Origin: Berberis thunbergii
Lineage: Eukaryota; Streptophyta; Magnoliopsida; Ranunculales; Berberidaceae
Reading direction: 5' to 3'
NCBI GenBank assembly: GCA_003290165.1
Contig: QNQO01000221.1
Location: 806,001-870,000 of the forward strand
DNA: 64,000 nucleotides
Shown: piece after piece, positions 1-64,000 of the stretch
How the letters are laid out: each line of letters opens with the position of its first letter
Position numbering within the stretch: the stretch's first letter is position 1
Made by a program: the position numbers and the translations under genes
Notes under the pieces: generated by a model
The model's database searches: none
The model's input: only the letters and a program-made list of their open reading frames with translations
What the model was told of the DNA's origin: nothing

Positions 1-29
1 TTTTGACAAGTGAAAACCTATGTAACAAT

Positions 30-53
30 GACACCGACATGTGTGTCGGTGTC
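30..53. repeat. Perfect 10-bp inverted repeat
   Basis: GACACCGACA, a 4-base spacer, then TGTCGGTGTC: a perfect small hairpin. Function unknown. The bases from here to about 699 show no other recognisable coding similarity; 460-490 is a GT-rich low-complexity run. Confidence 0.6.
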
Positions 54-699
54 CAAGACGGATTACGAGGTGTCCGACAATGACTACCATTGGCATGATT
101 ATACTTGGTTATTTTACTGCCATTTCTTGCTCCTCTTCTTCTTGATTTCGTTCCCTTTTTTCCCTTGAAACATTATGTACATTCATCATCACAAAAATGT
201 TTAGATCATTCAACATTTCTTTCAGCAAAAGGAAGTGAAAATAATACATTTTATTTTCTTTTGCTTGATCACCAACATGGTGTTTCTTGTCTTTGTCACA
301 ATGAACTTCGAGTGCTCAGGCTAATGCATACATGATAAGATGTTGATATGTTTCTTCTCAGGCTGAAGCTATAATTGTTTTGAAGATCATGTCGGGGAAA
401 TGCAGTACTCAAACTTTCTTTGTATTTAAATCTTCAGGTGTCGTTTTGTTAATTTCACCTTTTTTGTGGTGGTGGTGGTGTGTGTGTGGTTACATTTGAA
501 GGTTTTCTTTGTATTTAAATCTTGGGTTTTCTTTGTATTGGTGTTTAGGTTTGAATTAAGGTTACTCAGACTCTTTGTAGTGTACAAAGTTCTCAGAATG
601 TCTGGACTTGGTCATTTTGTTTGGTTAAAGTACTATAGTTATATGCTACTTTACCACATTCTACTTCTCACATTTTTTTGTATTTTATTCTTAAAGCAG

Positions 700-837
700 G
701 CTGCACTACATGCTCTTGGAAACATCTCAGAAGAAAACCGTTCAGCTAATGATGCATTGCTGAATGATAATGCAGAAGAATGCCTTCGACATCTCATCTA
801 TGAGACAACAACTAATAGTTCAAAGCCGACACCATAT
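700..837 (+). pseudogene. Captured exon, PSMD5-like ARM-repeat protein
   Basis: After a TTAAAGCAG acceptor, one open exon encodes AALHALGNISEENRS, then a segment with LRHLIYETTT. This resembles the ARM-repeat 26S proteasome assembly chaperone (PSMD5/S5b-type) of plants. Only about 45 residues are present. A possible donor (ATAT|GTTAG) follows. It is an internal exon without start or stop, so it cannot make the protein alone. The assignment is from remembered family sequence; another ARM-repeat protein is possible. Confidence 0.55.
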
Positions 838-1780
838 GTTAGTATACCTCCTGCTATTGCATTTGATAAGTCAATAGCCTTTGCTCATAGTTATTTTTGT
901 CTTGTTTCTATCAAATTGAAGTGTCAGTACTGTCAACTCTACTTCTGAACAGTGGCAAAGGACCCATGAAACTCTTTTCTTGGTTATATCAGTACCAACC
1001 CCTTTAAGGAATTTTCTCTCTTTAAAATAAGTTTGTCACTAAGCTAGACTTCCCCTTTAACTGGATGATGAAACTGTTCCAGAAACTAATGATACAAAGG
1101 TAACTACTCCATCATCCATTATGGTCTTATCTGTGCTCCCATAATGGTGGTGCTGGATGGATCAAAAGACCATCAATTCCATGTAGAAGGAACATGGGTG
1201 TAAGCATCCATGAGATGACTCTTGTAGTAGGAAAGGGGAATTCAAGTTTTGTTGGACTTTTTGTGTGGGGAAGTGCCCTCAGGAAATAATTTCTGAGGTG
1301 CTCTAGTGACTAAGAAAGGGGAGAACATCTATGGATTTTGCTGTAAGTTGCATAAAGTGTGCGCCTGGTGCCTCAGCGCATACTACAAAAAAATGGACAC
1401 CTTTAGGTGCCTGTGTGACCTACACAAGGCACCCAGGTTTCCACTATGCTCTGCCGTGCACCTAAATGGGTCTTGACAACTCTCACAGAACAATTTCATT
1501 AGCGTTGTGACATTTTTTTCCCTTTAAATGAAATTGAGCTGTCTCTTATTGTCAATGCGTCTTTGCATCTCCATGTTTCAGAGACGAACCTCTCTCTAAT
1601 TGAGTTTATGAAATTTTAGATCAGGAGTCTCTTTAGTTTGTGCCATAAAACATGGGTCTCACCGAGAAATGTTTTCCATGTAATATCTCATCTATCTTGA
1701 GAGAGGCTGATAAATGAGTAGTATATCCTGACACACAGTATTGGAGACGAGCTGCTGATCCTGTCCTTTCTCATGATCCT
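838..1780. other. No recognisable gene; short GCGCC-rich repeat
   Basis: No coding similarity seen. Around 1355-1460 lies a segment rich in GTGCCT/AGGCACC and GCGCC motifs. A related GCGCCTAGGCGC-like stretch occurs at about 6935-6980. Both look like pieces of a short interspersed repeat of the kind common in plant introns. Confidence 0.35.
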
Positions 1781-1784
1781 GTGG

Positions 1785-2124
1785 AAAAATGGACTCAATG
1801 GGATTCTAGCAGATCAAATGGGACTTGGCAAGACTATCCAAACCATTGGATTTCTTGCTTATTTGAAAGGAAAAGGCATGGATGGACCCTATTTAGTGAT
1901 AGCTCCCCTTTCTACTCTTTCGAATTGGGTGAATGAGATAACAAGGTAAAGTTACCCTATTTATTCCTGCTTTCCATATGTTCTTATGTGAAAACTGGGT
2001 GTTTCAGGTTTGTTCCTTCGATCAATGTAATTATCTATCACGGGAATAGGGACGAAAGGCAGGAAATAAGAAAGAAGCATATGCCAAGACAAATAGGTCC
2101 CAAATTTCCCATTGTAATCACTTT
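1785..2124 (+). pseudogene. DDM1: Captured exons of SNF2 chromatin remodeller DDM1
   Basis: Two exons (about 1785-1945 and 2008-2124) are split by a GT-AG intron. The first encodes [20 protein letters not shown], which holds the Walker A/helicase motif I of SNF2 ATPases, then [12 protein letters not shown] (motif Ia). The second encodes PSINVIIYHG and KKHMPRQIGPKFPIVIT, typical of DDM1/Lsh. DDM1 maintains DNA methylation and silences transposons. Only about 90 of roughly 760 residues are present and the reading frame is open across both exons. The intron is retained, so capture was at DNA level. Confidence 0.85.
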
Positions 2125-2135
2125 TTTTTTCCATG

Positions 2136-2215
2136 TTTTGAAGGCAACTGCTGGTGGTGGAGGACGTGGAATGCGTCTTGCCAAGGAACCTGAAGAGTTT
2201 GTGAAGTTGTTACAG
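2136..2215 (+). pseudogene. CAC2: Captured exon of plastid biotin carboxylase (acetyl-CoA carboxylase subunit)
   Basis: Encodes KATAGGGGRGMRLAKEPEEF followed by VKLLQ and a GT donor. The glycine-rich loop TAGGGGRGMR is the ATP-binding signature of biotin carboxylase (AccC/CAC2), which carboxylates the biotin carrier in plastid fatty-acid synthesis. It follows the DDM1 exon with no visible intron and continues in the same frame, giving a chimeric reading frame 1988-2290. Only one internal exon is present. Confidence 0.8.
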
Positions 2216-2348
2216 GTATTGGTAGCCACTGACCCAACCAACATTCCTATTGGTTTAAATATTGCAAATATTGCAGTTCATTTATACTGAGTGTTGAATA
2301 AGTAATAGCAATAGTTTAATTTGGAAATTCCCTCCATCTTAGACACAT

Positions 2349-2504
2349 GTTTACAAAACAGATTCAGGAGTATGTGCTGTTTTTCTTGCCAACCTCGACG
2401 ATAAATCTGATGCAGTTGTGAAATTCAATGGGAACACATATCATTTACCTGCGTGGTTTGTGAGCATCCTACCGGACTGTAAAAATGTGGTATTCAATAC
2501 TGAG
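2349..2504 (+). pseudogene. Captured exon of plant beta-galactosidase (GH35)
   Basis: Encodes VYKTDSGVCAVFLANLDDKS and then YHLPAWFVSILPDCKNVVFN. These blocks match the conserved region after the catalytic barrel of plant BGAL proteins, which are secreted cell-wall exo-galactanases. About 52 residues, open, ending at a GT. Only this piece of an approximately 840-residue protein is present, so it is non-functional alone. Confidence 0.8.
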
Positions 2505-2949
2505 GTTTATTCCGTCCTTGTCCATGTATCCTACATTGGATGTGGGAGATTGAATTGTTGCGAAAAAGGTGTCTTTCTTCTTTCATTTACATAGCTTGGC
2601 TTGTTAATTATGAGCTTGCCAGATATAGGATGGTTTGGGTTGTTGAATTTGTGTGATATAGAGCTTTAATTGTGCTCATATTTTAATGTGCATAAAAGAT
2701 TACTAGGGATCAACAGTGTAATTGGGGTTTATTAAAAATTTTAGAAGTAGAAACAGTAAATAAAAATAGTTCATGAATTCGTTCATTTACTGGATATTCA
2801 TGTGACTTTTTTAGTCTGAATTTTCTTGATGAAATCTGTTTCAATTGATATTAGTACAATTTATACATGTTTGGGCTTTTGAAATTACTGATACATAGTT
2901 GTCATTTTCATAAGTTGCAGTATTTTAATCTCAATATTTCTAGGACTCG
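2505..2949. other. No recognisable gene
   Basis: AT-rich spacer between captured exons; no coding similarity or repeat recognised. It may be intron sequence carried with the beta-galactosidase or signal-peptidase fragments. Confidence 0.4.
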
Positions 2950-2955
2950 TATTAT

Positions 2956-3157
2956 CAGAAAGCCGTGTGCAAATGATGTAATCATTTTCAAAGCCCCAGC
3001 AGTCTTGCAGGTATGTTTAATTCCTTGAAAATGTTTTAGTGTACATGCGATGTTTATATCTTAAGCTTCCTTATCTTGTGCTTTTCAGGATGTTGGATAT
3101 GCTGACGGGGATGTTTTTATTAAAAGAGTAGCCGCTAAAGAAGGTGATGTTGTTGAG
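2956..3157 (+). pseudogene. Captured exons of plastid/thylakoid type I signal peptidase
   Basis: Exon one (2956-3010) encodes RKPCANDVIIFKAPAVLQ. After an intron with GT..AG borders, exon two (3089-3157) encodes DVGYADGDVFIKRVAAKEGD. This is the region with the conserved FIKRV-A-GD block (general-base lysine) of plant Plsp1/TPP peptidases, which remove thylakoid-transfer signals. The serine-bearing exon is absent. About 41 residues remain. Confidence 0.75.
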
Positions 3158-3271
3158 GTAATAGAATGATTTTAGTTATAGGTAAGTGTTATTATCTTAA
3201 ATTATATCTCTTCAGTTCATTGCCACTTTACCAAAAAAGATCAGATCCTGGCAGACTGAAGGAAAGGTTTC

Positions 3272-4575
3272 ACTCTATACTCTATACCGTCATTTGCACG
3301 GTTAACCTGTGCTGATAGTAATCAATTTCATGCAACTTGCCTGGACACTTCACCCCTAATATTCTATATGAATGATACATCCCACAGGTCTGTACTGTTT
3401 ACTTGATGCCTTCAATTGATAATACCTCTTCGTATTTGTCAAATTTTGTGAATTATTCGAGACTTCTAATGTTGGTAAACAACTACAATTTTTCAGGATA
3501 ACCCCTAATGGAATCGTTCTGAAGGGACACCACAGGTATTATTTATTGACATATTCAGTATTGACTACTTATGCTATAAGCTGTATATTACCTACCTACT
3601 TTGCTTCATTGTTTTGGTGCCTATTTGATATGTTTTCAACTTTTCATACTGAGAATCAAGATTAAATAGAAAAGTTACTGCTGACCATATTACTTATAAG
3701 AGTTTTTTTTCCCTATTGAAACTCAAATGGAGCACTTTTGTATTATGATAAAATGGACTCCATGGTTGCAATATTAGAGTATGATCTGCTTTGCAAACTG
3801 TCAATATGCATAGTTGAGGTAGACACTTAGGGAACAAAACTTGTTCATATGGGTGAATTACGACCTAGTGAATGTGCTGATGTTGGCTATTTATATATGA
3901 AATAACTGAGGTACTCAATGTGCTAATTTGTAAAAGTGATGGAATAATCATTTATTTGTTTCCTATTTAATGGTCAACCATCTATAACTGTAATGCATGA
4001 TGGAAGCATGTAGGAATCAGTACAATTAGATTGGAATAAAAAAAAACCTATTAGATTGCTCCATGCTACGATATGAACAAATTTATGTTCAATCCCTTGA
4101 GGATGCCCTGTACTTAAAGATCAGATGAACTGTGTATAAACTTTGTGTCTAGTTCGCTTAATGTAATGAGATATTTGAGGAGGTCACTAAATTTTCTATA
4201 CGTAACAGGTGGCTTACACCTTTGATGAGGGTCCTAACGCAATGCTAATTTCACCCAATAAAAAAGTGGCTACCCTTATTCTTCAGAAGTTGCTATTATA
4301 CTTCCCTCCATCTTCAGATACTGACCTGAGCAGGTAAGAATGATTACCTTATTGCATTTTTCTCCTTGTAGAATTGGTAATGCAATTTAATCAAGAAAAT
4401 AGATAGGCTATTCACATAACTTTAATTTCATTTTAAAGTACTGAAAGTAATGTTCTCTTACTCTTTCTCAGTTATGTAGTTGGAGATAAAACAATACTTA
4501 AAGATGCCGGTATTAGTACAATGAAAGATGTGGAATCCTTGCTCCTCCCTTCAGAAGCTAAGGATAATGTTATAC
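3272..4575 (+). pseudogene. MVD: Captured exons of mevalonate diphosphate decarboxylase
   Basis: Four consecutive exons keep the order of the source gene. About 3272-3387 encodes [20 protein letters not shown] then FYMNDTSHR. 3497-3535 encodes WNRSEGTPQ but has an in-frame TAA just before it. 4209-4333 encodes [12 protein letters not shown] and [14 protein letters not shown]. 4472 onward encodes SYVVGDKTILKDAGISTMKD, then loses similarity. MVD makes isopentenyl diphosphate in the cytosolic mevalonate pathway. Introns are kept. The early stop and missing ends make it a pseudogene fragment. Confidence 0.85.
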
Positions 4576-4927
4576 TAAACATGGAGAAAAGTGTCAAAAC
4601 TGAGTTAACTTGCATACAATGTAGAAGATTGACCCATGAGTATTTAATTGTCTTTTATATGCATGATGTGTGTATGTATTCACTTTTATTTTTATTTTTA
4701 ACGTATACTAATCTGTTTTAAATATTTGAACTATTTAAAAACACATTTTGTTGGAGTTAGTATATGTTTCATACTGAGCGTATGCAAGGATTGAAGTTTG
4801 TTTGATGAATCTTTTAAGCCTCCAATTGCAAAAGATCTTAACAGATAAATATAACTTAGCAAAACTATTTTACTTTGCTGTTGTACTGTTTATTCATAGC
4901 AGCAAAACAATTTTATAAATTAGGAAG

Positions 4928-5041
4928 CAAGTGAAGACATGGGTTCCACCATGTTTAATCCCAGAAAAGGTGGCTCTAGAGCTACCATGTTCATATTCAG
5001 AGTTTCAGCTGTTCAAGGATTTGGCTTCATCTAAAGAAAAA
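4928..5041 (+). pseudogene. Unassigned captured exon-like segment
   Basis: An open stretch encoding VKTWVPPCLIPEKVALELPC followed by a serine/lysine-rich tail, bounded on the right by a GT. It looks like a real plant exon (no stops, mixed composition) and has the same orientation as its neighbours. I do not recognise the family. Confidence 0.4.
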
Positions 5042-5972
5042 AGGTTTGCTTCAAGCATTAAGCATATCCATATCTCCTCTTTACATCTGTGCAATTAGCT
5101 TAGGCATTTTTCTAAGAACACTGCCAAGATTTAGGCAAAGCTAAGACTCGGTCACTGCTATTGCTTTCCTAACATTGACCTTTCCTAACATAGAATGTAA
5201 ATAATAGAAACATTTCTCAACTTGATACGTCATCATTAAGCTTTTGTACCTAAATAACATTTAAATAATGAAATGTCGTGGACTCGGAGCAGCGAAGTTT
5301 GCTTGCAGGGTTGGTCTGCCAAGAATTGGAGCTGCTCTGTCTTGTTTTTTTGGTGCTGCAATACATTGGACAACACACTCTGTTTTGACAGAGTGGTCTG
5401 TCCTGATGCACTCTACTGTTTTTTTTCTTCTGCTGTTTGTGATTTGTCATCAAATATTCTGATCCATGTTCTTCCACATGACTTGCCTTGCAAAACAAAA
5501 AGTGAAAACTTTTCTAAACTTATGAGGAGGTAATGTTGTTAAAGAATATATTTTAATTTGATGCAATATGCAATATAATTATGTAGAACTAAGAGCAAAA
5601 ACCATGAATGGAACAATCATCCCGTTACTTGTTTAGTTCTAACTTCTAACAACCGTCTTATTTGTAGTGTATGTAGATAGATGATTAGTAGCCAATGATG
5701 AACCATTAATTGTTTGATGTTGTACAACTCTCTAGTTTTCTCTCTGATCAGCATTTATTGATCAAGTCTTTGTTGCTTTTCTTGTCTTTGTCACAGGCAT
5801 ATGTGCAACAAATTTAGTCAAGTCGGATCAAGCTCACTTAACTTGAACAAGAGCTTCAAAGAGATAGGGCTCAAGTGGGTCACAAAACCTAGCTTCTTTT
5901 TAAAAGTTTTAGTTTTTTGAAAAAAAAATAAAAGCCTTAACACAATGTTTCGTTTTTTGCTCTTCAATTCAG
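5042..5972. other. No recognisable gene
   Basis: Several short open frames overlap at 5250-5533 on both strands, without similarity that I know. They may be one more captured exon or chance. Confidence 0.3.
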
Positions 5973-6314
5973 GGTGTTTTCTTTAGTGGAGGAGCTCTTA
6001 TGGCTGATCAAGGTCTTCAAGTGGGGATGAGCAATCAAAGCCAAGGTATATCTCTCTCTCTCTCCACTCTATAATTCAAACTCATTCTAGCTAGCTAGAA
6101 TTCAATTCTAATTTAATATATATTTGAATTTCATAATGTTTAATTTGTGCAACTTTACGTGGACAACTGCCTTGCACACTTGGATGAGATGATGGGCTTG
6201 AAGGCAATGCTCATGAAAGCCGATCTCTTTCATCTCGTTTCAGGCATGTGGAAGACTTCGGCAGAGCGCTGGTTTTTGTGGATGGGTGGGTTCAAGCCCT
6301 CTGAAATCATCAAG
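5973..6314 (+). pseudogene. Captured exons of TGA9/TGA10-type bZIP transcription factor
   Basis: Exon one (5973-6045) encodes GVFFSGGALMADQGLQVGMS. Exon two (about 6147-6314) encodes VDNCLAHLDEMMGLKAML, then FHLVSGMWKTSAERWF and GGFKPSEIIK. This is the DOG1/TGA domain downstream of the bZIP in the TGA9/TGA10 clade, which acts in anther development and salicylate/redox responses. The exon that normally lies between the two blocks is missing, and no bZIP region is present. Confidence 0.85.
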
Positions 6315-7260
6315 GTACACCCTAATTACACTGACAAACATTTCATTTGTTTGCACAAAAATAAAGAATTAATATTGTTAATGGGTTAATTTTTATGATC
6401 TGATCAGATAATGTCTTAACCGGCCAATTGGGTATTAATATTCTGATTTTAGTCTTGTAAGAGAGCAATCAGCACATTCATTTGCTATCTTTGCCAATAA
6501 ATATGAAGACTCGCCTTCGCCTTATTCATGTTGACTCAGTATAATACCCATTATGTGCTTTTTCATGAATGATTAATTCTTGGATTCCCATTTTTAATTT
6601 CCAGTATAATTTCCATGTTGACTCAGTATAATACCCATTATATGCATCTATAAATAATATAACATGTCATTGTATATGCTTGCCCTCCCTGCAATGCAGC
6701 CTTTTTCACCTACATGTTTGGAATGACTTATTATTGATACAATGGTTGGTTGGATTATGCCAAATGTAGCAAAAAGATCAATTTTTCTTGTAGACTTGTA
6801 TTAAACTATGACATTATTCTGTTAGGATAGTGGCTGATTCAGTTGGAAAACAATCATGAACTTTTTTTTATTGGATCATTGGATTATTCATTGTATCTTG
6901 TATTAGTGTGGTTAAGGTGCAGTGAGGGAGTGATACCCTATTTGTGCCTAGGCGCAAGGCATGCGCCTAACGTACATTAGGAGCACCCTAGTTTGAAATT
7001 TTATTGCTATGTTCTAGTGCTTTGAGTGAACACTGAAATTGAGTTCAGTTTATTGAAATTCTGTTGAGAAACATTTTAAATTGCATAAAATTGCATATCA
7101 ACTATCTTTTATGTGATCGTATCCTGAATGCTTCCTATACTTAAGAGTAATTAAGCATCTTGTACGAAAACAATTCTTATTACTGGTGTGAGATATCAAA
7201 CATGGAAATATTGTCCTCTCATATTATCACCCTCATCTCTTTTGTGCATGAATGGAATGC
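6315..7260. other. No recognisable gene; GCGCC-type short repeat
   Basis: AT-rich spacer. At 6935-6980 there is a stretch with GTGCCTAGGCGCAAGGCATG, related to that at 1355-1460. Otherwise nothing recognised. Confidence 0.35.
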
Positions 7261-7289
7261 AGGCTGCTAACACGAGTGCTGTTACTAAA

Positions 7290-7570
7290 GGGGGCAGGTT
7301 GCTATATGTTGCAGAGTGCTATGTTGTTACATGTAATGTTGTTTGGGAAGGATTTTTGTTAGATTAGTTGTCAATAAATGTAGTACTATAAATAAGAGAG
7401 CATAAGAGAGAAAAAGGGATTCATTTGATTTGTAAGAAAATTGTACACTTGAGCATTTACTCTATAGGAGATTAGCTATCTCGAATTAGCTTTCTTATTG
7501 AATACAATCCATTCCATTTACTGTCATCTATTCAGAATTAAAATTACAAGTTCTTCAGTTTGTAATTTCT
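7290..7570 (+). repeat. Copia-like LTR fragment
   Basis: Contains CTATAAATAAGAGAG, then GTACACTTGAGCATTTA and GGAGATTAGCTATCTCGAAT. This order resembles the promoter and R-U5 part of a Ty1/copia LTR. A related segment lies at 30499-30985 in element E2, again just inside the right subterminal repeats, and a looser one at 22590-22870. No internal retrotransposon coding is adjacent, so it is a solo or partial LTR. Confidence 0.5.
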
Positions 7571-7616
7571 CTTCATTGCCTGTATTGCATAACTGTCAGT
7601 AGAACTGCATTGGCTT

Positions 7617-7936
7617 AACACCGTAACCAAAAAAAAAAAAAAATTTGCCACGGCTTAAAACCGTGGCTAATTATTGCAACGGCTAAAAACCGTGGCTAGT
7701 ACTGGCCACAGCTTAAAATCGTTGCTAAAGCTATTGCAACGGATTGTTGCCACGGTTTATAACCGTGGCTAAATCATCAACCGTCCTCAAGATAAAACCG
7801 TTGCTAATATTTTTGCCACGGTTTTTAGCCGTTACTAAGGATTTAGCGATGCCTCTACAGCCCATGGCTCTAAGCCGTGACAATGGGTTACCCCCATGGT
7901 TTAAAACTGTTGCTAATGGGTATTTTTGGTGTAGTG
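7617..7936. repeat. E3 right subterminal repeat block
   Basis: About eight divergent units of the type TGCCACGGCTTAAAACCGTG-GCTAA, each an imperfect palindrome (CCACGG..AACCGTGG), ending in the CACTA terminus. In characterised En/Spm elements such subterminal motifs are the binding sites of the TNPA accessory protein. The same 3' block, including ATTGGCTTAACACCGT, recurs at the right end of E5 (57030-57289). Confidence 0.85.
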
Positions 7937-10969: not shown

Positions 10970-11215
10970 TACTACACCAAAAGGCCTATTTAGCTACACG
11001 GAGCTGGCCACGGCTCTAAATCGTTGGTTTATTTGCCACAGCAAAAAATCGTGGATATAGTGGTCAACGACTTAGAACTATGGCTATAAAAATAACAAAC
11101 CGTGGTGCCCAAAAGTTGGCCACGGCTATAAACCGTGGGTTCATTTGTCACGGCTAAAAGCCGTGGCTATAATTGGCAACGGCCAAAAATCGATGCTAAA
11201 TAAGTGTGTTTTCCA
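10970..11215. repeat. E2 left subterminal repeats
   Basis: Units such as GCCACGGCTATAAACCGTGG repeat about six times, with diverged copies. It is followed at 11230 by GTGTGGAGAGAG and TTTCGCGCTTTGGC, a block repeated right after the left subterminal repeats of E5 (48372-48400). That places both in one family and fixes their relative orientation. Confidence 0.85.
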
Positions 11216-11600
11216 CATAAGGCCGCCCGTGTGGAGAGAGCAGTTTCGCGCTTTGGCGAAAAAATTTGGGGACAATAAAAAATTTTGTGCGGTCATTGCG
11301 AAACAAAATTTTGACCTATTGCGAAAAAATCAGTCAGAGAGATCGAGGTGCAGAGGAGAGATCGAGGAGCTTGAAAATCCGAGTCAAAGAGAGGTTTGGC
11401 GCAGAGGAGATATCGGGGAGCTTGAAAATTTCATGGTTTGGTTTCGCCTCCTTCCATTTTCATTTTAGGGTTCCTTAGAAAATCAGAGTCAAAGGGTTCA
11501 TTTTAGGGTTTCTTTAAGGATTCCAAAGGGTTGAAGTTTAAGTTCAAATATCAACCTCAAAGGATTTTTTGAGGTTGTGTCAGAATTAGGGATGTTTAGA
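11216..11600. promoter_or_regulatory. Probable left-end promoter/leader region of E2
   Basis: Purine-rich region with near-direct copies of GAGGAGAGATCGAGGAGCTT at about 11345-11380 and 11400-11425, sited like the leader of E5. No coding similarity. The promoter role is inferred only from position and homology to E5. Confidence 0.3.
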
Positions 11601-11610
11601 GGATCAGTAG

Positions 11611-12521: not shown

Positions 12522-12988
12522 GGATGTTAAGTGAAAGCAATAATAAGAAACTTGTAAGATAGATTATGTGTCTAAACTCTGTTCCATATTTTTATTTATG
12601 AAAATATATATCACAATAAATAAAAAAATATCAAATGGCCTAAGAATATCGAAGATACCTGTGCATATGTACAACTTTGTGTTAGTCCAAAGGTTCTAGA
12701 ATCCCTAAGTTATTGATTATTCCATGAGTATACTAAATTTATGCATATAGTATAAAGATTTTTTTTCCTTATCTTCTAGCTTATATTCACTATTGATATT
12801 CTTTTCATGTACTATGAATATGATAAAGAAAGAAAGAAAACGGTTTGTCTTGATATGAAAAATCTTTTTGGTTGGAAAATGTTTTATTGTCTTAAGTCTT
12901 CACCATTATCTTATTTCACTTCACCCATTTCTGTGCAATTTATTTGTTTGCCTCCTAAAACTAAAATAGATTCATTTTCTTGTTGCAG

Positions 12989-21340: not shown

Positions 21341-21354
21341 ATTTATAAAAAACT

Positions 21355-22580: not shown

Positions 22581-22589
22581 GTTTTGGGA

Positions 22590-38600: not shown

Positions 38601-38602
38601 GA

Positions 38603-49770: not shown

Positions 49771-49774
49771 TTCA

Positions 49775-52111: not shown

Positions 52112-53039
<928 letters not shown>

Positions 53040-53307
53040 TAGCTTGTCTAGGTCCCATGCCACTGGTTGGAGTGTACCGCAAGAACTTTTGAGTAAAGTG
53101 CTGGTGCATTTAGTTTCAGTTTCTCAGTATTCTCTCATGAAGCAAATGGTGTCATCTTGCCTCTATGTCTGAATTTAGGAAATTTTGAGTAAAGTGCCGA
53201 TGTTTGTTATTGGACTGATGTTTGTGCTCTTAGCGGGTTGGTAAACACAATGATGGTTTCACGAATTGATTTTATGGTTATGGGACTGATGTTTGTGCTC
53301 TTGGCAG

Positions 53308-53733
53308 TGTCGTCTACGTGGGAAGATTGATTCCAATGGCGTTGTAGCAGCTTTTCTAGAAGAGCGGCTGAATATGGGTATCAATTTTATTCTATCTGCT
53401 GAGGTAATTCTTGTTTTTTCTTGCTTCTAGTTTATGTGGTTCCTAAGAGTATCATTAATTCCAAAACAATATTTTTTTCTTATGAGAGAAGTACTTATAT
53501 CCTTTATTCTTGTTTTATGAAATGCGGCGTGGGTGCCCAGAAACATGGCCTGTTTAAAGCTACTTCTTTACAATGATGCAGGTCTCATGGCAAAACTATT
53601 TTTGAAATTTAGTTAGCTATATCTGTGATTAGTCAGTTTAAAGCTTTTAGTTTTACAGTGACTTGTTTGGTTGCAGATTGATCATCAAAAGAATGACTAC
53701 AAATTTGGGTTCGGACTGACTGTAGGAGAGTAA
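53308..53733 (+). pseudogene. TOM40: Captured last exons of mitochondrial import pore TOM40
   Basis: Exon 53308-53403 encodes [20 protein letters not shown] then [12 protein letters not shown]. Exon 53677-53733 encodes IDHQKNDYKFGFGLTVGE and a TAA at the native position. These are the final beta strands of the TOM40 barrel, including the C-terminal sorting signal region. Open frame, intron kept, N-terminal two thirds absent. Confidence 0.9.
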
Positions 53734-54370
53734 TTCGTTCATCCATTCAGGATTGGATTTAGTATTTCCTCTCAACTTGCTGTTGTTTAAACTGTTTCAC
53801 TGAGTTTGTTCTGAGCTTAACCATTGCAGCAACTCAACAAATTTTCTCTAGATACCGTTAAGGTAAAAGAAAAAACATCAGTTTTGTATCTTCTTTTGGC
53901 AAAATTTCCCCATTCAAATGAACTGTTTGTTTCATAATTATAGTGGGCCAAAGTGATGGCATTGCAATTTAGTGGCATATATTATGGAGGTTTATTTATT
54001 GGTAGTTAATAGTGGGAATCTAGATATTTGTGTGCGGCTTTGTCTACACACAACAGAGTAACTAGCGAAAATGAATGTGGATGTAAACTAACACATATTT
54101 TACCAACAAATGCCCTAGATTGAATCAGTGAGACGAGGCTGTAACTTGACAAGAAAATACAATTTAATCCCTATGATTTTAATATAGTCGTTGGATTTTA
54201 ATATGTATTCATTAGTTTACTGCTTCTTGTCAATCAACATTTGGTTATTAATTGTAGTCTACTTATGTCCTTGGAGGTTCAGTATTGTCTACATGTTTCT
54301 GTTTTTCCTTTTCCATTGTCTTCCTAACTTCTCAAATATTATACGGTCTTAATGCCTTCTATGTGATCCA
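53734..54370. other. Probable TOM40 3' region and junction
   Basis: Follows the native TOM40 stop, so probably its 3' UTR and downstream DNA. No further coding recognised apart from a short QLNKFSLDTVK stretch at 53830-53862. Confidence 0.35.
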
Positions 54371-54371
54371 G

Positions 54372-54999
54372 TTTGGTTACGGAAACTATACCTTACCATA
54401 AAGATTACAAGGTGTCGCTACAAAGAGAAAAACTTCTTTTCAGGAAGGTATTTTCATGATGCATTTGTGTATTCCTTTTATTTATTTAACAAACATTGTG
54501 ATTCCAATTCCCATTTATTGTTATCCGTGTTTGAAATTCATGTAGAAATCATTAAATGCTATGAGTGAGGCGGAGGTGTTGAAACCAGCTGTTCAAAGAA
54601 AGATTGAAGAGTTTAACAGAATAAGTACAAGCCAAGTAAATGGGTGGAGTCCCAATCAAACTAATTACAGTGATTCTTCTCTGGATTGGCCTCCTGTCAA
54701 AAAGTTCCCTCCTACCAGCCCTAAGATCAGAAAGGTACATGAAGATTTTTCTATGCACCGAGAAATTCATATAGTTGTATCTTTTTAATATAGATTCAAT
54801 AACCAGCATTTCTCCTCGATCTTGATTCCTGTTATTTTTTATTACTCCTCGCATGACTTGTCCAATTTTCTGCTATCCTTTGATAGATACCTGGATATGT
54901 TGGAAGAGGAGGAACATACGAGGTTCCACGCATTCAACATGATGAATATTCACTTTCTAACCCAAACCCAGTGGAGCAGCAGTTGCGCAAATTGTAAGG
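54372..54999 (+). pseudogene. Unassigned captured gene piece, three exons
   Basis: Open exons with good splice sites. About 54372-54448 encodes DYKVSLQREKLLFRK. 54546-54734 encodes SEAEVLKPAVQRKIEEFNRI then SSLDWPPVKKFPPTSPKIRK. 54888-54999 encodes IPGYVGRGGTYEVPRIQHDE and PVEQQLRKL. The text joins smoothly across introns, so this is one real host gene, probably a conserved plant protein. I cannot name it. Confidence 0.55.
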
Positions 55000-55905
55000 T
55001 TCTATGCTTCTATTTTGTATTGATTTCTATAAACGTGATTAGTTCAATGATAGAATTTTGTTTTAATTCTCTGGATTCTCCATCCAATTTCATTACTGCT
55101 CTGTTTCTGAAATAGGAAGAAATTTTCAGGCCTGTATTTGGTTGTATTAGCATTATGTCTCACGTGTTACTTTGATGTTACGTTACAATGACACGGGTAT
55201 ATGCTCAGTGTCACAGCTTTAACAACTGGATTTTCAAGCCTGGGATTGACTTGTCAGTTACAGTTTTAACAACTGGATTTTGGCCATCTTAGAAATCACT
55301 TGTTTCTACCAATTGAGATGGTAAGAATCCTTTCAAGTTTTATATATCCAGCTATCAAGTTTTATATAAGCTCTTCTCGCAAAAGAGTTGTGTCTAAGGC
55401 TGCCCACTACATCAATTTGCTTGCCTTCATCTTCATAACCTATTGCTTTAGAATGACTTTAAAGTATTTTTTTAGTGGCCTGTTTTGGAGACATTATTTA
55501 TAGCCAAATGCATGTTTAAGCTTTCTCAAGTTCTGCTTGCCTGGAATCAATGGAATTATTACCCCCTGCCATGTTGATTGGTGAACCTTCAATGCGCCAG
55601 ACCAAACAAAACTCATGGTTTTCATTACTGTTCTGTTTCTGAAATAGGAAGAGCTTTTCAGGCCTGTATTTGGTTATATTTGCGTATTAGCATTTAGTTG
55701 TATTTGAGTATTAGGGCAGTTCTGAAATAGAAGTTTTCTTGTATTTTTATTCTTTGTGAAGTCTGTTGCTTGATTTGTTAAATACATCCAAGGATTGTTA
55801 AAGTCAAAATTTGAGTAATCTTGGGTATGGTGGATCATTATTTTGCTTGGATCATGCTATAGGCCTTGCATTCTCACTAGTTCATGTTTATTCTGCACAA
55901 TTTAG
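55000..55905. other. No recognisable gene; internal duplication
   Basis: CTGTTTCTGAAATAGGAAGA followed by TTTTCAGGCCTGTATTTGGT occurs at about 55100 and 55630, a partial direct duplication. CAGTTTTAACAACTGGATTTT also repeats at 55215 and 55260. No coding similarity. Confidence 0.45.
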
Positions 55906-56590
55906 GATCCCATCAAAAGGGAGTTTGCGGAAGAGTTGTTGTCTTACACAGACACCTTCACTACCGTCGTGATGGCTGCACTAAAACAGAATGCAAATGC
56001 TGGTAAGACTAAACACTTTATTTTATAAATTTAGTCTGAACTAGACTTCAAGTATATACATGATCAAGGACTGATTTGCATCACTTACCTGCGTCAGATC
56101 CTACCTTCGATCACCTGGAAACTGCTATCACCAAATTCGATGACGGGCCTTTCTTCCTTGGCCAGTTCAGCCTGGTAACTTATATATCTTTTCCTCTGCG
56201 TTAGATATTTTCTGTTTTATCTTTTTCAGTTCATCCTTATTGCGTCTAATGATTGAGTTAACATTTGTATGTGACCTTCAGGTGGATATTGCCTACATAC
56301 CATTCTTTCAGCGATACACTCCCTTATTGTTGGATGTAAAGAATTATGACATCACAATAGGAAGACCTAAGATGACATTATGGTTTGAGGTGTGCCATCA
56401 ATTCCTTTACATATTTTTTTAGGTCTATTAAGGGATAAACTTATAAGATCGATATTTTACCAACTGCTGAATCTATTATGTATGAGATGGAGAAGGTTGA
56501 GGCATATACATAAACAAGAGTAGATCATGAGGAGATCATTGCAATCGTAAAGATGCGCCTTTTGGTACACAGTCTCTCTCTACATATACT
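55906..56590 (+). pseudogene. Captured C-terminal exons of lambda-class glutathione S-transferase (GSTL/IN2-1)
   Basis: 55906-56002 encodes DPIKREFAEELLSYTDTFTT. 56098-56174 encodes FDHLETAITKFDDGPFFLGQ then FSL. 56282-56389 encodes VDIAYIPFFQRYTPLLLDVK then NYDITIGRPKMTLWFE. About 56484-56570 encodes MEKVEAYT, a TAA, then the degraded tail. This is the helical C-terminal domain of plant GSTL enzymes, cytosolic/plastid thiol transferases. The catalytic Cys domain is missing. The likely 3' UTR follows to about 56870. Confidence 0.9.
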
Positions 56591-57029
56591 TAAAGTTCAT
56601 TACAAAATGATACAAATTTGACAGTCTGAATACTAAGCTTCTCCTGTTTTTTTTCTTTTGTAGAAAACAAGCTGATGATTTGGCTGCACCAAGTTGTTGA
56701 TTTTACTTAATTTTAATGTGTTTGTACGTAATACGGCTAGTGAGGATGTTATTGTTGTGCAATGTAATAAATCCGAGGTGGATGGTTTAATTTGTATTTC
56801 CTGATTTGTACATGATGTTTGTCATCAATAAACTGTATCAAAAATTAAAATTACTCCAGTTGATGGTCAATGGAACCAAATTGATATTGATTCACTCTTC
56901 TCTTATTCACACCCAGAAGTACCAAATATTTAGTCCCATGGTATGAAGTGGGATCAATATATTTGTTCCATGTGACCCGATTTTGATCACTTCTTTATTG
57001 GCTTATAGTGGTCAAAATGTCAGTAGAAC

Positions 57030-57289
57030 GACATTGGCTTAACACCGTGACCAATTTTTTTTTTTTTTTGCCACGGCTTAAAACCGTGGCTAACGTTTTT
57101 GCAACGGTTTAGAACCGTGGCTAAATCATCAACCGTCCTCGAGTATAAAACAGTTGCTAATATTTTTGCCACAATTTTTAGCCGTTACTGGGGATTTAGC
57201 GTCTCCTCTACAGCCCACGGCTCTAAGCCGTGACAATGGGTTACCCATACGGTTTAAAATAATTGCTAATGGGCATTTTTGGTGTAGTG
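57030..57289. repeat. E5 right subterminal repeats
   Basis: Begins ATTGGCTTAACACCGTGACC, a T run, then TGCCACGGCTTAAAACCGTG units and the terminus, matching E3 7611-7936 nearly unit for unit but shorter. Confidence 0.9.
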
Positions 57290-57529: not shown

Positions 57530-57639
57530 CACTACAACACAAATACTTAATAATAGCATTCACGGATAGCGTTTTTTATAACAATGCTATAAAAGTCAAT
57601 TTTCAATGACTTTGCAAATAAAAAAAGCTATAGTCAATG

Positions 57640-58324
57640 GCGGGCATTGGCGGGCATTTTGGCGCTCCCAAAATTTTTTGGTTTTTCGCTACGTTATCTC
57701 TTCTCTCCCCCCATTCACAACAGAACTCGCCTCGCCTCTCATCTCCTTCGTGCTCGCCTCTCTGCTCGCCTCCCATCTCCTTCTAGCTTGCCTTTCTCTG
57801 CTCGATCTCTTGCTCACCTCTCATCTCCTTCGAGCAGCTCTCTCTCTCTGCGTCTCTCTTCGAGCAGCTCCCGAGGCAGATTTGGGAATAATGGAATCGG
57901 AGGTAAATATGGAAGTGTTGGGTTTGGAGTTGTAGGTGGCAGTGTTGGATTTGGGGTAGTGGGTGGTAAAATAGGTGTTTCTGGAGTGGGAAGAAGGGGT
58001 GCTTTGCTAGAACCCAAGTCCTCACTAGGTTTCTGGTTGCAGAGCTCTGGCTGTTTGAGTGGCTTGAAGGCGAAAAACCCAGCTGAGAATATATTATTAT
58101 GTGTTCCTTCCTTTTTAGATTTCAAATGGAGTGACGATGAAGTCACAGATGAAGCCACTGAACAGAATGGCTCACTGCTGCTGATTAACTTCACCGAACA
58201 TCCCTTGATTGTCTTGACATGTTTGCTAACTGCAAGAGGTAAAGTGTTTGAGTCCTATGGGTTTGCTCATGGTTCTGCAGGTAAAGTGTTTGATGAATTG
58301 TTTGTGTTGCAATTGGTTTTGTGA
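57640..58324 (+). other. Leader and unassigned open frame of E6
   Basis: A CT-rich leader rich in CTCGCCTC words is followed by an open frame with Gly-Val repeats (GKYGSVGFGVVGGSVGFGVV), then LDFKWSDDEVTDEATEQNGS. The Gly-Val part is a short tandem repeat; the last part looks like a host exon. Family not recognised. Confidence 0.35.
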
Positions 58325-58368
58325 ATGCAGGGTTTTTTTGTTTGATTGGAGTTTTTGAGATTTTGCAG

Positions 58369-58436
58369 AATTGAGGAATGTTGTTCCGGATGAGCATAAG
58401 AAGTTTCTTGCTGATTTGGTTTGGGTTCATGAAAAG
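58369..58436 (+). pseudogene. Captured exon, possibly calcineurin-like phosphoesterase (RLPH2-like)
   Basis: After TTTTGCAG, one exon encodes LRNVVPDEHKKFLADLVWVH then EK and a GT. It resembles the stretch before the metal-binding core of plant Rhizobiales-like/calcineurin-like phosphoesterases. Only about 23 residues, so the call is weak. Confidence 0.3.
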
Positions 58437-58556
58437 GTTAGTAAACAAAACCACTTTGTTTGATTTGTTTACAATTTAGTGGAATTTTTATAGTTATGGT
58501 GTTGTGTGTAGTGTTTTCTTTGCTAGCTCATCCCTTCATTCTCATTTTATTTTCAG

Positions 58557-58886
58557 GTGTTGGATGCCAGGGATCCACAAGGTACAAGATGCCCTCACTT
58601 AGAGAAGCATTTGAAAGAGCATTGCAAGCACAAACATTTGGTTTTGTTGTTAAATAAGGTTATTTTCCTATTTAATATGTTGAAATGGAATGAGCACTAA
58701 ACTTTGTTTATTATGATTCAAACTTTGTTTCATTTTTATTGTGATCCTTACTTTTGCTTGCAACTTTTGCCCATCTCCTCAGTGTGATCTCATTCCAGCC
58801 TAGGCTATGAAGGATGGCTGCGAGTATTATCAAAAGAATTTCCTACTCTAGTTTTTCATGCCAGCATCAATAAATCATTTGGCAAG
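58557..58886 (+). pseudogene. NUG2: Captured exons of nucleolar GTPase NUG2/NOG2
   Basis: 58557-58658 encodes VLDARDPQGTRCPHLEKHLK then HCKHKHLVLLLNK, the DAR motif and G4 (NKCD) start of circularly permuted YlqF-type GTPases. 58783-58886 encodes CDLIPA, a TAG at 58801 (family Trp), a one-base shift, then WLRVLSKEFPTLVFHASINK. NUG2 matures pre-60S ribosomes. Introns kept; stop and shift mark it as dead. Confidence 0.9.
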
Positions 58887-60269
58887 GTACTGTGTGTGTG
58901 CATACATTGATTATTATGATCTGATTTGTTTTTATGTGTGTGTTTACCATAAACGAATATGAGAAGCTTTGGGAGTTCTACAATCCAATATTTGTTTGCT
59001 CAAAGCGTCATTGTCCCTACTCCTGTAAGTTGATAAAGTTTATTCCCTAGATACCCTGAATATTTTTACGACATCAAGATTTTCTGCATAAAAAAGACGT
59101 TGCAACCAATAGATTCTTTGGACCCAGTTTGCACATGCTGTGCAGAAGATACAAATAGGTGAGAATCAAGGATTACCACATCATAACACCTATTAGCATA
59201 TCCATCGAATGTTCTAATGTCATGTCTTATATTAGCATATCCATCGAATGTTCTAATGTCATGTCTTATCATAACACCTATTGCATCATTTTTATAGGGG
59301 CGAAGAAAATAAATTAAATTTTCTTGCAAAAGCTTGTAGAATGCTGCAAGTTCAATAATTTTTAATTTGATTTTGCAGGGGCTTTTCTCTTCTCTTCTGT
59401 TTCAAAAAGTATCTAGTCTTAAAATCAGTCCTAGACAATGCTGTTTCTGGTGTTTGAAGCAGTCTTGTATTCTTGCTTTCCTTATAATTCAAAACCTTCA
59501 AACACACCCTTGATAATATACTGTCCCAAAGTCATTTGAATTTTTCACTTATTCTTGTGTTGGGCTTCAAATCCTAAGCATGGTAAGAAGTGAAGACTGC
59601 TTATTCGTGTCGTTTCTAAAATTTTCCTCTTTGCTTAGTATATTATTTGTAAAAAGGGAAGACTAGTCATTTCTGTGGTTTGTAGAATCTTTCCCTTTGT
59701 TCATACTTCATAGTATATGTGTGCATGTATGGGAAATTCAGTATGTGCATTTGATGTCGACCTACTTGTAATTGTGTTATAACTTTTGTCTTTCAGCTCG
59801 TGCATTATGTTAACCGCGATTCTCTGGGCTTAGCAAATGACTTCCTTTCCGTCTTTTTGATTAAAAGAAAAGCTTTGAAGAATCAGATAGTTGTTGCTAG
59901 TCATGCATTTTCTGTTTTCTGCAAATGGCTCTCTGTAACTTGAAGTGTTTATTTGTATTTAGTGCGTGCCATTACTCTATAGCTTATGTTGCTTTTTCAT
60001 GGTTTATACAGATTATGGTTGATATAGTGTTGTATCGGATTTTTCTTTTGTATATGTATACTTTCCTTAGTGTTTGTGTGTGTGTGTTGGTGATTAGTTC
60101 ATATCTGATTGTATAAAACTCACAAGCATACATTGTTCTTGTAATTATTGGTATGACGGCACCCTGAACAACAAATGTGTTCTCTAGCATAATATGGCAT
60201 TTCATTCTTCTTATAGTAGTATTGTTAATATTATGATTTATGAGTTGACACTCTTGTTACTTCTTTTAG
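58887..60269. other. Mostly unassigned; two exon-like pieces and a direct repeat
   Basis: About 58956-59045 reads YEKLWEFYNPIFVCSKRHCP in an open frame; 59790-59880 reads LVHYVNRDSLGLANDFLSVF. Neither is recognised. TATTAGCATATCCATCGAAT followed by GTTCTAATGTCATGTCTTAT is tandemly duplicated at 59190-59270 (about 38 bp). Confidence 0.4.
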
Positions 60270-61046
60270 GTGGCAAATTTTGAATTTATAGATGAAGTGA
60301 GAGCTGCAGCTGCGGAGGAAGTGCAGGAAGCATCCACTGCAAATAAACCAACCGACAGTATCTCAGAGTCTAAACGTTATTGGGAAGAATTGCTGAGGTA
60401 TAGATATGAAGTTCACCAAATTTAAGAGACTACTGCATTGGGGAAGGGAAAGAGAAGTCGTAAGTAGGTTCTTTTCTGTCATTAGAAGCCGTAAGTAGGT
60501 TCTGAGGTCTTTTCTTGACCACCTTTACAGTGTCAATTTGACTTGATATCTTGCTCAAGAATGTTGGATTTCTTGTGATTGAAATTTAAGAATAGTTTTT
60601 AACAGTCATGGACAAAAATTGAAGTTAATAATTAAAACTGGTTGATTGCAAAAATTATGTTTTAGAAAGGTTAATTGCAAATATCTGTCTGGATGGTAAT
60701 ATGTCATTTACTATGTTTTGTGGGTATACGTTTAGATGGTGTCTGTTGACGAGGATGACCTTGCTGGTGTGGAAGAGGTGAGTTCTGATGGAAGGTGAAG
60801 GGAAATCCTTTAGAGTTCTTGGCTTTAATCACCAGCAGCGAACTGCTTTTGTCTTGACATTAATGAGGTTGGTTATGTTGAAAATTTTGTCTTAATTAGG
60901 TTTTCTTTTTTCTGTTTTTTTGCTACCCTAGGATACTCTTGCAGTTCACGACAATGTAAATTTACTTTTCAGGTTCGGAGTTGGTGACTTTGATTGGAGA
61001 GACTTTACAAATCGAGTGAAGCAGAAGACCCCTGAGGAGATTAAAG
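60270..61046 (+). pseudogene. PKL: Captured PICKLE exons, post-helicase part
   Basis: 60270-60470 encodes VANFEFIDEVRAAAAEEVQE, YWEELLRYRYEVH, a TAA, then ALGKGKRSRK. 60736-60867 encodes MVSVDEDDLAGVEEVSSDG fused to EGEGKSFRVLGFNHQQRTAF, with an internal deletion. 60973-61046 encodes FGVGDFDWRDFTNRVKQKTP. This is the DUF1087/DUF1086 and SANT-like region C-terminal to the ATPase of the CHD3 remodeller PICKLE, a regulator of seed genes and H3K27me3. One stop, one internal deletion. Confidence 0.88.
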
Positions 61047-61369
61047 TGTATGTCTTCTAAACTCTTGTCCATAATTTTGCACTCCAAATTTTTTTTTTTT
61101 TTTTTGAAGGTGTAAGATCTGTTTCTTATAAAGAAGGTAGTTGCCAATAAGGATTTTCTTTCAAGTTATTTTTAGAATAGATAAGGAACTTAAAAGTGTT
61201 TTTACTTGAAGATGTTTATTGTAGCTCTATAGGGTAAAACCTAAGCAATTTAAAAAAAGAGGGGAAAAATGTTTTTTCAAACAAATCCCAGGCAACAAAG
61301 ACAAGGACTTTTAGTGCATTTCGCAACTCAACCAGCTTAGCTATTCTGGGATTATGTGTCCTTATTAAT
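61047..61369. other. No recognisable gene
   Basis: Intron-like DNA with a T run at 61089-61104, holding the junction between the two PICKLE pieces. Confidence 0.4.
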
Positions 61370-62208
61370 CTGGGAAAGTGGCGACCTTCTTAGTTGTGCG
61401 ACATGCACTTATGCATACCACTCCAAATGTTTGCTTCCTCCATTGAAAGGACCTCCACCTGAGAGCTGGAGCTGCCCAGAATGTGTACGTTTATGAAGCA
61501 GTGAATCATATTCGTGAATTTGTTTGAGCTTGGTTTGAATATCATTTCTAATCCAAGATTTGGTTGCTGTAGGCGAGTCCTCTAAATGACATTGACAAGA
61601 TATTGGACTTTGAATTACGGCCTACTGCTGCTGATGATGGTGATGCTTCGAAGCTGGGTTCAAACCAAATATTTGTTAAACAATATCTTGTGAAGTGGAA
61701 GGGCTTGTCTTATTTGCATTGCACATGGTACTCTTGTTTAATGTATCGTGCATGCAATTTTCTTTTTGTCCCTTCAATTTCATAATAAGTAATTAGAGGG
61801 CTCATCAATCACTTGAAGTAGAATTTCCCACTGTCAAGTCAAGGTTTACTTTGTAGTCTCTCCTGCGTGCTAATATTGTTCTGTTCCACCGTGTCACTAG
61901 TCAAAGCTGGCTCTCTGTTATAGCTTTATTGCCTTTTGTCCACTTAATAAAAAGCTTCACTGGTTAAAAAAGCTTCATTGGTCATTGGGCAAATAATGCT
62001 TCTGGATATTTTCAGTTACTTACTCTGCAGGTACTACTTTTTGCAGGGTGCCAGAGAAGGAGTTTATAAAAGCGTATAGGGCAAATTCTAGGCTGAGGAC
62101 CAAAGTTAATAACTTTGATAGGCAAAAGAATTCAGTGATTGAGACTGGAGATGAGTTTGTTGCAATCCGGCCTGAATGGACCACTGTTGACAGGATTCTT
62201 GCTAGCAG
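61370..62208 (+). pseudogene. PKL: Captured PICKLE exons, N-terminal PHD and chromodomain part
   Basis: 61370-61484 encodes ESGDLLSCATCTYAYHSKCL then LPPLKGPPPESWSCPEC (PHD finger Cys/His pattern). 61573-61727 encodes SPLNDIDKILDFELRPTAAD, then QIFVKQYLVKWKGLSYLHCT (chromodomain). 62047-62208 encodes WVPEKEFIKAYRANSRLRTK, FVAIRPEWTTVDRILASR. In PICKLE these precede the ATPase, yet here they lie downstream of the C-terminal exons: the order is permuted. All three exons are open. Confidence 0.92.
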
Positions 62209-63306
62209 GTTTTGTCACATGTTGTTGTTTTGGCATATCTGTACTATAGTGTTTTAAGCATGCGTGCCATATTCCAGAAATCACTATATGCTTGACATCT
62301 TCGCATTGGAATCATGGCATGTTCAAGTTCAGCTGTTCTTATTGCCACTGGATTTGTATGCTTCATCTTCTGGTTCTTATAATGTCGTGATCTATTTTGA
62401 TATTTGATGATATTATCTTCTGCTTCACCTACAATTGTTGTATGTGGTTATTGGGGCCAGAACATATAATTCTGTATGAAAGAGAGGTTCACATGGGGTT
62501 GAGCAAACTTGGTCAACCATAGGGAGTAACCAACTGTCAACTTGTTGGTCTCTTATGTGCATATTGCCTGTATACAAAAAATAACAGCTATAAGATGTAA
62601 TAGTTACAAACCCATAGTACATTAGCAAAAAATAACAGCTATAAGAAGTAATAGTTAACTACAGTAAACAATTTTCTAATAGCTCTTGATCATTAGTAGC
62701 TAAGTGACAAACTAGACATGTGCATGGATTTAAGAATATACTTAAAATTCATTAGAAAAGGAATATGAGTATACATTTGATGTTTGAAGTTCTTGGAGCT
62801 GCAGATCAGAGGAGACTTGCACATTTGTTTGATGGGGGATCCCGAGGTTGCAAAAAGTCAGCTTAAGCACATAATCAACGTAAAATTCTATCTATACCTT
62901 CTATAAATTTATAAAAAGACATGATCAGATGCAGGTTTCTCCAACTTAAAGCCCTATACCTTCAAGAGTCAAGTATAACTGCTTTCTGTCTATCTATATT
63001 TGATCTTGTTTCTTTCTTTTGTAAGAGAAGTTAGTTTTGTAGTACTGTTTTCTTACTCATTATGTTCGTTATGTTTGGTCAGGGCTGAAGAGTCTGGGGT
63101 AGGCAGATCACCATCTACATTCAAGTGCAGAGAATATAAAATTTGCTGCTGCAGGTATGCCATCATGAAATTCATCTAAATTGTGACATTTGAAGTCCAT
63201 GTAAATTCTGGTTGTGGCAGGGTATTATGTTCTTGGTTGGGCCATCTGGCCATGTACCATGTGTAATCTGCAAATGACATTTGAATATCATCTATACCTT
63301 TTGTAG
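62209..63306. other. Unassigned; one exon-like piece at 63084-63155
   Basis: 63084-63155 reads RAEESGVGRSPSTFKCREYK in an open frame up to a GT donor; family not known. AAAAATAACAGCTATAAGA repeats at 62577 and 62626. The rest is AT-rich intron-like DNA. Confidence 0.35.
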
Positions 63307-63893
63307 ATATCCTGTGATGACTCGAGCTTTAATGAAGGCAGGCCGTAAAATCTTCTTCTTTCTATGTGAATGGTAACCATGTTCTACATCATGAGCATTT
63401 TGTCTTTTAACTTGGAGATTACATCCTTAACCCTTGGTCAACTTTATGGATTAGGGGTGACTTGCATCCTGCTCTATGGGGCGGTAGGTTGGGAAACAGT
63501 TGGAGAACTACTAATGACATTAAGGATAATTGGCCTAGGTAAGGAAGACTATGGGTGTCATTTGTATACTTCCTTTTTCATTCACAAACAAATAGCAGTT
63601 TGATAAAAATTGGGTCTCGTCCTGTTTTCTTTTAACAGTATGATTGCTACAGCTGACATGAATGAAGTCTATGCTGATCTTGCAAGGCCTGGTGGTTGGA
63701 ATGGTATAAAACTAGTTCCATTTTGTATATAATTTGATGGCCATGGAGGCTAATAATTTGATGAAGCATTCAGTTTTTGTTCTAACAATATAATTATTAT
63801 TTATGAGCAGATCCAGACATGCTAGAAGTAGGAAATGGAGGTATGACTAAAGATGAATACATAGTGCACATCAGTCTATGGGCTATTTCAAAG
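63307..63893 (+). pseudogene. Captured exons of alpha-galactosidase (GH27)
   Basis: 63307-63372 encodes [20 protein letters not shown] then EW. 63455-63538 encodes [20 protein letters not shown]. 63639-63703 encodes [20 protein letters not shown]. 63811-63893 encodes [20 protein letters not shown] then ISLWAISK. The order is that of the source gene. These include the RT(T)NDI block and [13 protein letters not shown] with the acid/base Asp of GH27. No stop in the four exons, so this is the best preserved capture here. It may continue past the window. Confidence 0.92.
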
Positions 63894-64000
63894 GTACTGA
63901 AGATGTTTGTATATCTTATAAGTATATTCCTTCCCTGCGTAATGTGTTTTGCCAGTATTGAATTGATTTATTTGAGAATGATTATGGAAAGGCGCCTCTG

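Follow-up and report, generated by a model that had tools for sequence, protein, structure and literature searches.

Pieces of many host genes in a cluster of CACTA transposons of Berberis thunbergii

Which mobile elements hold the pieces of unrelated host genes that lie side by side in a 64-kb stretch of Berberis thunbergii DNA (QNQO01000221.1, positions 806,001–870,000; hereafter the window), and by what route did these pieces arrive? An initial annotation, made from the letters of this stretch, had named 21 donor genes and placed all of their fragments inside elements with CACTA-type ends. This plant DNA is rich in transposons, and our analysis indicates that the window very probably represents clustered, in part nested DNA transposons of the CACTA (En/Spm) superfamily, several of which are Pack-CACTA-like carriers of host gene pieces.

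CACTA elements and their ends

The elements were sought as CACTAC...GTAGTG pairs flanked on both sides by the same 3 bp. This search yielded three clear elements, E1, E2 and E3, each with CACTA terminal inverted repeats (TIRs) and a 3-bp target-site duplication (TSD). In a fourth and decayed element, E4, the TSD is present on both sides, the outermost bases at both ends are mutated (TACTACACC, CTATACACC), and the end regions are related to those of E3, to which they are 70–82% similar in local alignment. In all, the window holds three CACTA elements that are complete at both ends, a probable fourth (E4), in which E1 is nested as judged by coordinates and TSD, and the right end of a fifth, E0, which fits the CACTA type and whose left counterpart lies outside the window. 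Eight of the candidate pairs had at least 11 TIR matches, and three of these eight were flanked by an identical TSD, for which a post hoc binomial calculation gives a probability of about 2e-4 to 4e-4.

Comparison of the ends separates the elements further. The last 145 bp of E0 and E3 are 89% identical, the same regions of E0, E3 and E4 are 70–89% identical in the same orientation, and E0 reaches only 33–36% when compared to E1 or E2. Since E3 and E4 can also be aligned at their left ends (70% over 244 bp), E0, E4 and E3 form one end family, all pointing the same way, while the ends of E1 and E2 are different. The right end of E3 had no match among plasmid records. E1 has an expanded CACTA end on its left, a large array (14947–16925) whose 115- and 155-bp repeats derive from GCGACG-type subterminal motifs. 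A chimeric origin of the window, from unrelated contigs joined in assembly, is highly improbable, as TSD pairs bridge distances of 9 to 21 kb, E1 is nested in E4 and related ends are found repeatedly in the same orientation.

E1 and E2 contain transposase sequence. The closest record to the long E1 transposase stands at 68%, followed by Prunus and others at 63%, and E2 has separate open reading frames (ORFs) matching the Pfam families Transpos_assoc, Transposase_21 (1.1e-37) and DUF4216. On neither strand of E0 and E3 was a transposase match obtained at E 0.01. Two further observations concern E2: an ORF at 39315–39797 resembles a retrotransposon relic when read by eye, with no meaningful Pfam match, and an ORF located downstream of the transposase region contains a tandem coding repeat of 24 bp (44231–44440).

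Parts of 7937–10969 and of the DNA right of 31580 resemble remnants of a long interspersed nuclear element (LINE). An RNase H piece on the minus strand left of E4 matches RVT_3 (3.2e-10), and right of E4 a putative reverse-transcriptase piece on the minus strand, identified by eye like the remainder, follows in the order expected of a LINE. E4 appears to sit within this LINE remnant, an insertion site supported by its TSD and the order of the pieces.

Captured gene pieces

Donors were sought by Pfam frame scans, by searches with single pieces and by searches against chains of solved structures. Coverage was uneven, and donors may be missed at 31.8–36.6 kb (not scanned in all frames), at 14.7–20.9 kb (one ORF only), on the plus strand of 36.6–48 kb (some ORFs only) and on the minus strand of 40.3–46.8 kb (left out of the full-frame scan). 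Database matches back 17 of the 21 donors named in the initial annotation and add MCM7, which it had not named (Table 1). Supported donors number six in E0, one in E4, two in E1, one in E2, four in E3 and, including MCM7, four in the block right of E3 (57.5–64 kb). All five CACTA elements found hold at least one supported piece, and the maximum is six donors in one element.

The remaining four proposed donors found no such backing: PSMD5 has no Pfam family and its best solved-structure match is an engineered repeat protein (E 0.043), EHD1 gave only generic EF-hand matches, the UBX candidate in E4 has no Pfam family, and no DEAD-box piece was recognised among the ORFs read. Among the supported donors, the matches of signal peptidase, TOM40 and MCM lie under the Pfam curated cut-offs, and a solved-structure search with the TOM40-like piece was without match. 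A plain frame scan with a threshold of 0.01 did not detect the sugar transporter piece of E1, and the LRR-VIII-like kinase piece of E1 has no Pfam family. The subfamily labels CRK, LRR-VIII, ERD6, TGA9/10, GSTL and plastid are putative. Two coding-looking ORF pieces in E3 without a Pfam family (54546–54785 and 56832–56930) are possibly further donors.

Table 1. Elements, transposase and donor pieces in the window (positions are those of the window)
Feature	Position	Strand	Evidence
E0, right-hand part of CACTA element	1..7936	+	terminal CACTACACCAAA (reverse strand) at 7925-7936; left end beyond window
DDM1-like SNF2 piece, two exons (E0)	1761..2121	+	Pfam SNF2-rel_dom 2.2e-16
Biotin carboxylase exon (E0)	2144..2215	+	CPSase_L_D2 8.3e-5
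Beta-galactosidase piece (E0)	2343..2504	+	GHD 1.9e-21
Signal peptidase piece, two exons (E0)	2974..3157	+	Peptidase_S26 5.8e-4, joined exons, 20.3 vs cut-off 22.9 bits
Mevalonate diphosphate decarboxylase (MVD) pieces (E0)	3287..4328	+	MDD_C 6.4e-12 and 2.7e-5
TGA-type piece, DOG1 domain (E0)	6150..6317	+	DOG1 1.4e-19
E4, decayed CACTA element, E1 inside	10970..31580	+	TSD CAC both sides
GH9 endoglucanase pieces (E4)	11603-11686, 12318-12437	-	Glyco_hydro_9 7.8e-8, 6.1e-4 (second below cut-off)
E1, CACTA element	14674..29185	+	TSD TAT, TIR 11/13
TNP2-type transposase ORF of E1, 768 codons	17352..19658	+	Transposase_21 2.9e-97, DUF4218, Transpos_assoc
Sugar transporter (ERD6-like) piece (E1)	23440..23730	-	Sugar_tr 5.2e-6, two joined pieces
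Receptor-like kinase (LRR-VIII-like) piece (E1)	24932..25060, approximate	+	solved plant kinase chains, E 2e-6
E2, CACTA element with transposase ORFs at 40296-44021	36690..46811	+	TSD TGT, TIR 12/13
Receptor kinase (CRK-like) piece (E2)	37576..38115	-	PK_Tyr_Ser-Thr 5.1e-8
E3, CACTA element, no transposase detected	48052..57289	+	TSD TGT, TIR 13/13
MOR1 piece, eight exons in order with introns (E3)	49752..52150	+	XMAP215_CLASP_TOG 8.5e-17; MOR1 proteins, best E 1.5e-47
PRP43/DHX15-like piece (E3)	52710..52830, approximate	+	solved Prp43 chains, E 2.3e-12
TOM40-like piece (E3)	53308..53406	+	Porin_3 2.7e-4, 20.9 vs cut-off 28.4 bits
GST (lambda-like) piece, three exons (E3)	55906..56388	+	GST_C_2 1.7e-6 on joined exons
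Right block, possible further CACTA element	57530..64000	+	candidate left end only: CACTACAACACA at 57530
NUG2 piece, three exons	58359..58886	+	solved nucleolar GTP-binding protein 2 chains, E 5e-9, one exon
PICKLE C-terminal-half piece, ~residues 829-1010	60264..61057	+	DUF1087 8.4e-17, CHDII_SANT-like 9.8e-15; exon map
PICKLE N-terminal piece, ~residues 59-199	61374..62209	+	PHD 6.5e-8, Chromo 2.8e-6; exon map
MCM7-like piece	62799..62879	+	MCM 6.8e-4, 19.2 vs cut-off 23.3 bits; MCM7 chains best, 1.8e-5
Alpha-galactosidase piece	63411..63910, approximate	+	Melibiase_2 1.4e-10 on joined exons

The gene structure of the pieces bears on the template from which they were taken. The MOR1 piece spans about residues 131–408 of a 2020-residue homologue in eight ordered exons across 2.4 kb. 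At 11 exon joins tested, GT-AG was among the best joins in six cases (in two of which many other motifs tie), one residue short in one case and not found in four, and by eye a GT stands at the expected place at 13 of 17 displayed exon ends and an AG at 9 of 17 starts. Since introns and many splice sites remain, capture from DNA is well supported and processed (RNA-based) capture was rejected. The proposal that CACTA elements captured genomic DNA finds good support in multi-exon fragments with introns and splice sites, together with paired ends, TSDs and nesting. One intron of the MOR1 piece contains a 151-bp tandem duplication (50314–50615) with copies 97% identical.

The MOR1 and PICKLE pieces contain in-frame stops, and these two closely studied pieces are decayed. 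The order of the PICKLE pieces is scrambled, because residues ~829–1010 stand before residues 59–199. The first PICKLE piece lacks about 41 internal residues, and the alignments to either side of this gap share 8 bp, as would fit a microhomology join in this single case. Of 104 fetched proteins, the six that best match the PICKLE N-terminal piece all come from Ranunculales (five species), and for the C-terminal piece the top three among the same 104 are from Ranunculales and the fourth from Liquidambar. The best of 120 listed matches of the MOR1 piece (593 found) is from Macleaya (Ranunculales), with many others close behind. These matches point to a host from Ranunculales or close to that order, against which the records nearest to the E1 transposase speak.

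Several observations weigh against reading the window as a set of CACTA carriers. The end motif alone is not above chance (17 matches against 10.7 expected, with as many in 8 of 100 shuffles), and the TnpA-like ORFs in E1, E2 and E4 were recognised by eye only, without a meaningful Pfam match. Excision of E4 in silico produced no LINE ORF of more than 34 codons across the join, and a separate trial of the MOR1 exon 4–5 join gave no GT-AG solution. The direction of capture is presumed from the window itself. Of the 17 named donors with support, nine lack a shown end on at least one side. The claim that every fragment lies inside CACTA-type ends is thus shown for the eight between two ends (GH9, ERD6-like, LRR kinase, CRK, MOR1, PRP43-like, TOM40 and GSTL), but not for the six of E0, for which only the right end is within the window, nor for NUG2, PICKLE and alpha-galactosidase, which have only the candidate left end at 57530, its right counterpart being expected beyond the window.

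Are the pieces cargo that moves with the elements, or filler DNA from double-strand breaks near CACTA insertions? For wheat, CACTA-linked break repair that duplicates genes has been reported (cited in PMC4290129). Filler at an insertion site would however lie outside the element, while the pieces of E1–E4 are enclosed by the ends and the TSDs, which makes the filler explanation improbable.

The right block is a different case, since no confirmed CACTA end encloses it. Some of the pieces, and above all those of this block, may have been captured by an element of another type, a Helitron or a Pack-MULE, adjoining the CACTA elements. We regard this as a serious though lesser possibility. Multi-donor capture is well known for maize Helitrons, 187 of which carry fragments compared to five CACTA elements in 22 Mb (PMC2773423). 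On the other hand, a CACTA-like 12-mer and an inverted 8-mer pair are present at 57530, and no Helitron or MULE signature turned up, although no search aimed at either was made. The subterminal repeats of the candidate at 57530 do not exceed background (a fraction of 0.11 of windows scores as high), and a literature search with this end sequence returned unrelated papers only. A short element at 57530–58513 (TSD TTT, TIR 8/13) was rejected, as position 58513 falls between exons of NUG2. The block also harbors a perfect 39-bp tandem duplication (59191–59269).

Orientation of the pieces and possible route of capture

The plus strand carries all 14 supported donors of E0 (six), E3 (four) and the right block (four). 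The count is biased towards that strand, to which reading by eye and searches with single weak pieces were applied in addition. A frame scan treating both strands equally gave eight donors on the plus strand (DDM1, beta-galactosidase, MVD, TGA, MOR1, TOM40, PICKLE and MCM) and none on the minus strand, which was empty in all nine frames of the three blocks. In minus-strand ORFs of at least 34 codons, read by eye, no gene piece was recognised; the plus strand was read down to 25 codons. The two-sided probability of such a bias is about 0.008 for eight against none and about 1e-4 for 14 of 14, for a pattern that was noticed post hoc. In E1, E2 and E4 only one of four donors is on the plus strand.

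A tentative and, in our estimation, rather unlikely generalization would be that CACTA capture is directional, in that multi-donor carriers gather pieces in one transcriptional sense, either via transcription-coupled capture or via the survival of carriers that can be spliced out. If this held, a locus with three elements of one family and one orientation in 50 kb would be a capture nursery as predicted by the tandem-hybrid model. Among the papers listed in our literature search, none reported on the direction of captured pieces in CACTA elements, which is not proof of absence.

Two published ideas on capture can be compared to these data. In the first, neighbouring elements with compatible ends can move as a hybrid together with the intervening DNA, and for Pack-CACTA elements local insertions in conserved orientation have been observed (PMC8903248, PMC13317346). 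The second is abortive gap repair (cited in PMC8978399). E0, E4 and E3 are an array of the kind that the hybrid model requires, and the array would fit that model. The many short pieces of unlinked genes, the scrambled PICKLE order and the 8-bp overlap would fit repair with template switching better. On balance we lean towards repeated template switching, with hybrid formation contributing.

Along this route, E0 and E3 would have been mobilised by transposase made elsewhere, and donor DNA may have entered as excision gaps were repaired, through template switches at sites of microhomology. Fusion of neighbouring elements in the same orientation perhaps contributed. The captured pieces would then have decayed, not acting as genes. 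Where an element lies inside a transcription unit, exons in sense orientation could splice into chimeric RNAs, as reported for the soybean element Tgm-Express1.

Comparison with known systems

As the initial annotation had stated, gene capture by CACTA elements was already known. Examples are Tgm-Express1 (PMC1947982) and the Pack-CACTA elements (PMC8903248). Tgm-Express1, found in the soybean wp allele, holds pieces of five genes in 5.7 kb, with GT-AG sites kept and one spliced transcript (PMC1947982). It resembles the elements described here in that exons and introns of several unrelated genes, with their GT-AG sites, lie in a CACTA element, and its pieces should share one sense, since they are spliced as exons of one transcript. 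It differs in that our locus comprises several elements with three end families, some with transposase and with up to six supported donors per element.

Pack-CACTA elements of Arabidopsis and maize likewise have CACTA ends and a TSD around coding DNA from several loci, and the absence of transposase from E0 and E3 and the same-family neighbours in one orientation are further likenesses (PMC8903248). Pieces from the largest number of distinct loci are reported for those of maize (PMC8903248). The definition of a Pack-CACTA, coding DNA between CACTA ends without transposase, applies to E3 only, with four supported donors. While Pack-CACTA clusters were defined by copies elsewhere in the genome (PMC8903248), ours are known from one window, within which E0, E3 and E4 have ends in common but different donors.

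CACTA elements of wheat chromosome 3B and Chenopodium carry pieces upstream of the transposase, as does E2 with its kinase piece (PMC4290129, PMC8978399). On wheat 3B, 140 capture events involved 145 genes, that is about one gene per event, in contrast to several donors per element here (PMC4290129). In 22 Mb of maize, five of 92 CACTA elements had captured fragments (PMC2773423). The density called unusual in the initial annotation is indeed high when compared to these two data sets. For the most part that annotation is confirmed, apart from its statement on the element boundaries and four of its donor names.

For annotators the locus is a warning, as about 18 apparent genes are transposon cargo or decayed pieces. 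Helitrons are not known to possess TIRs or a TSD, whereas E1–E3 carry both, as E4 probably does. Maize Helitrons nevertheless resemble these elements in holding many fragments of different genes, thought to be gained stepwise (PMC3288121). With its scrambled PICKLE pair, apparent microhomology join, one-way orientation and same-orientation array, the locus is a rich one for CACTA gene shuffling. It is a dense new example of the capture already known from Tgm-Express1 and Pack-CACTA, notable for its density and its possible directionality.

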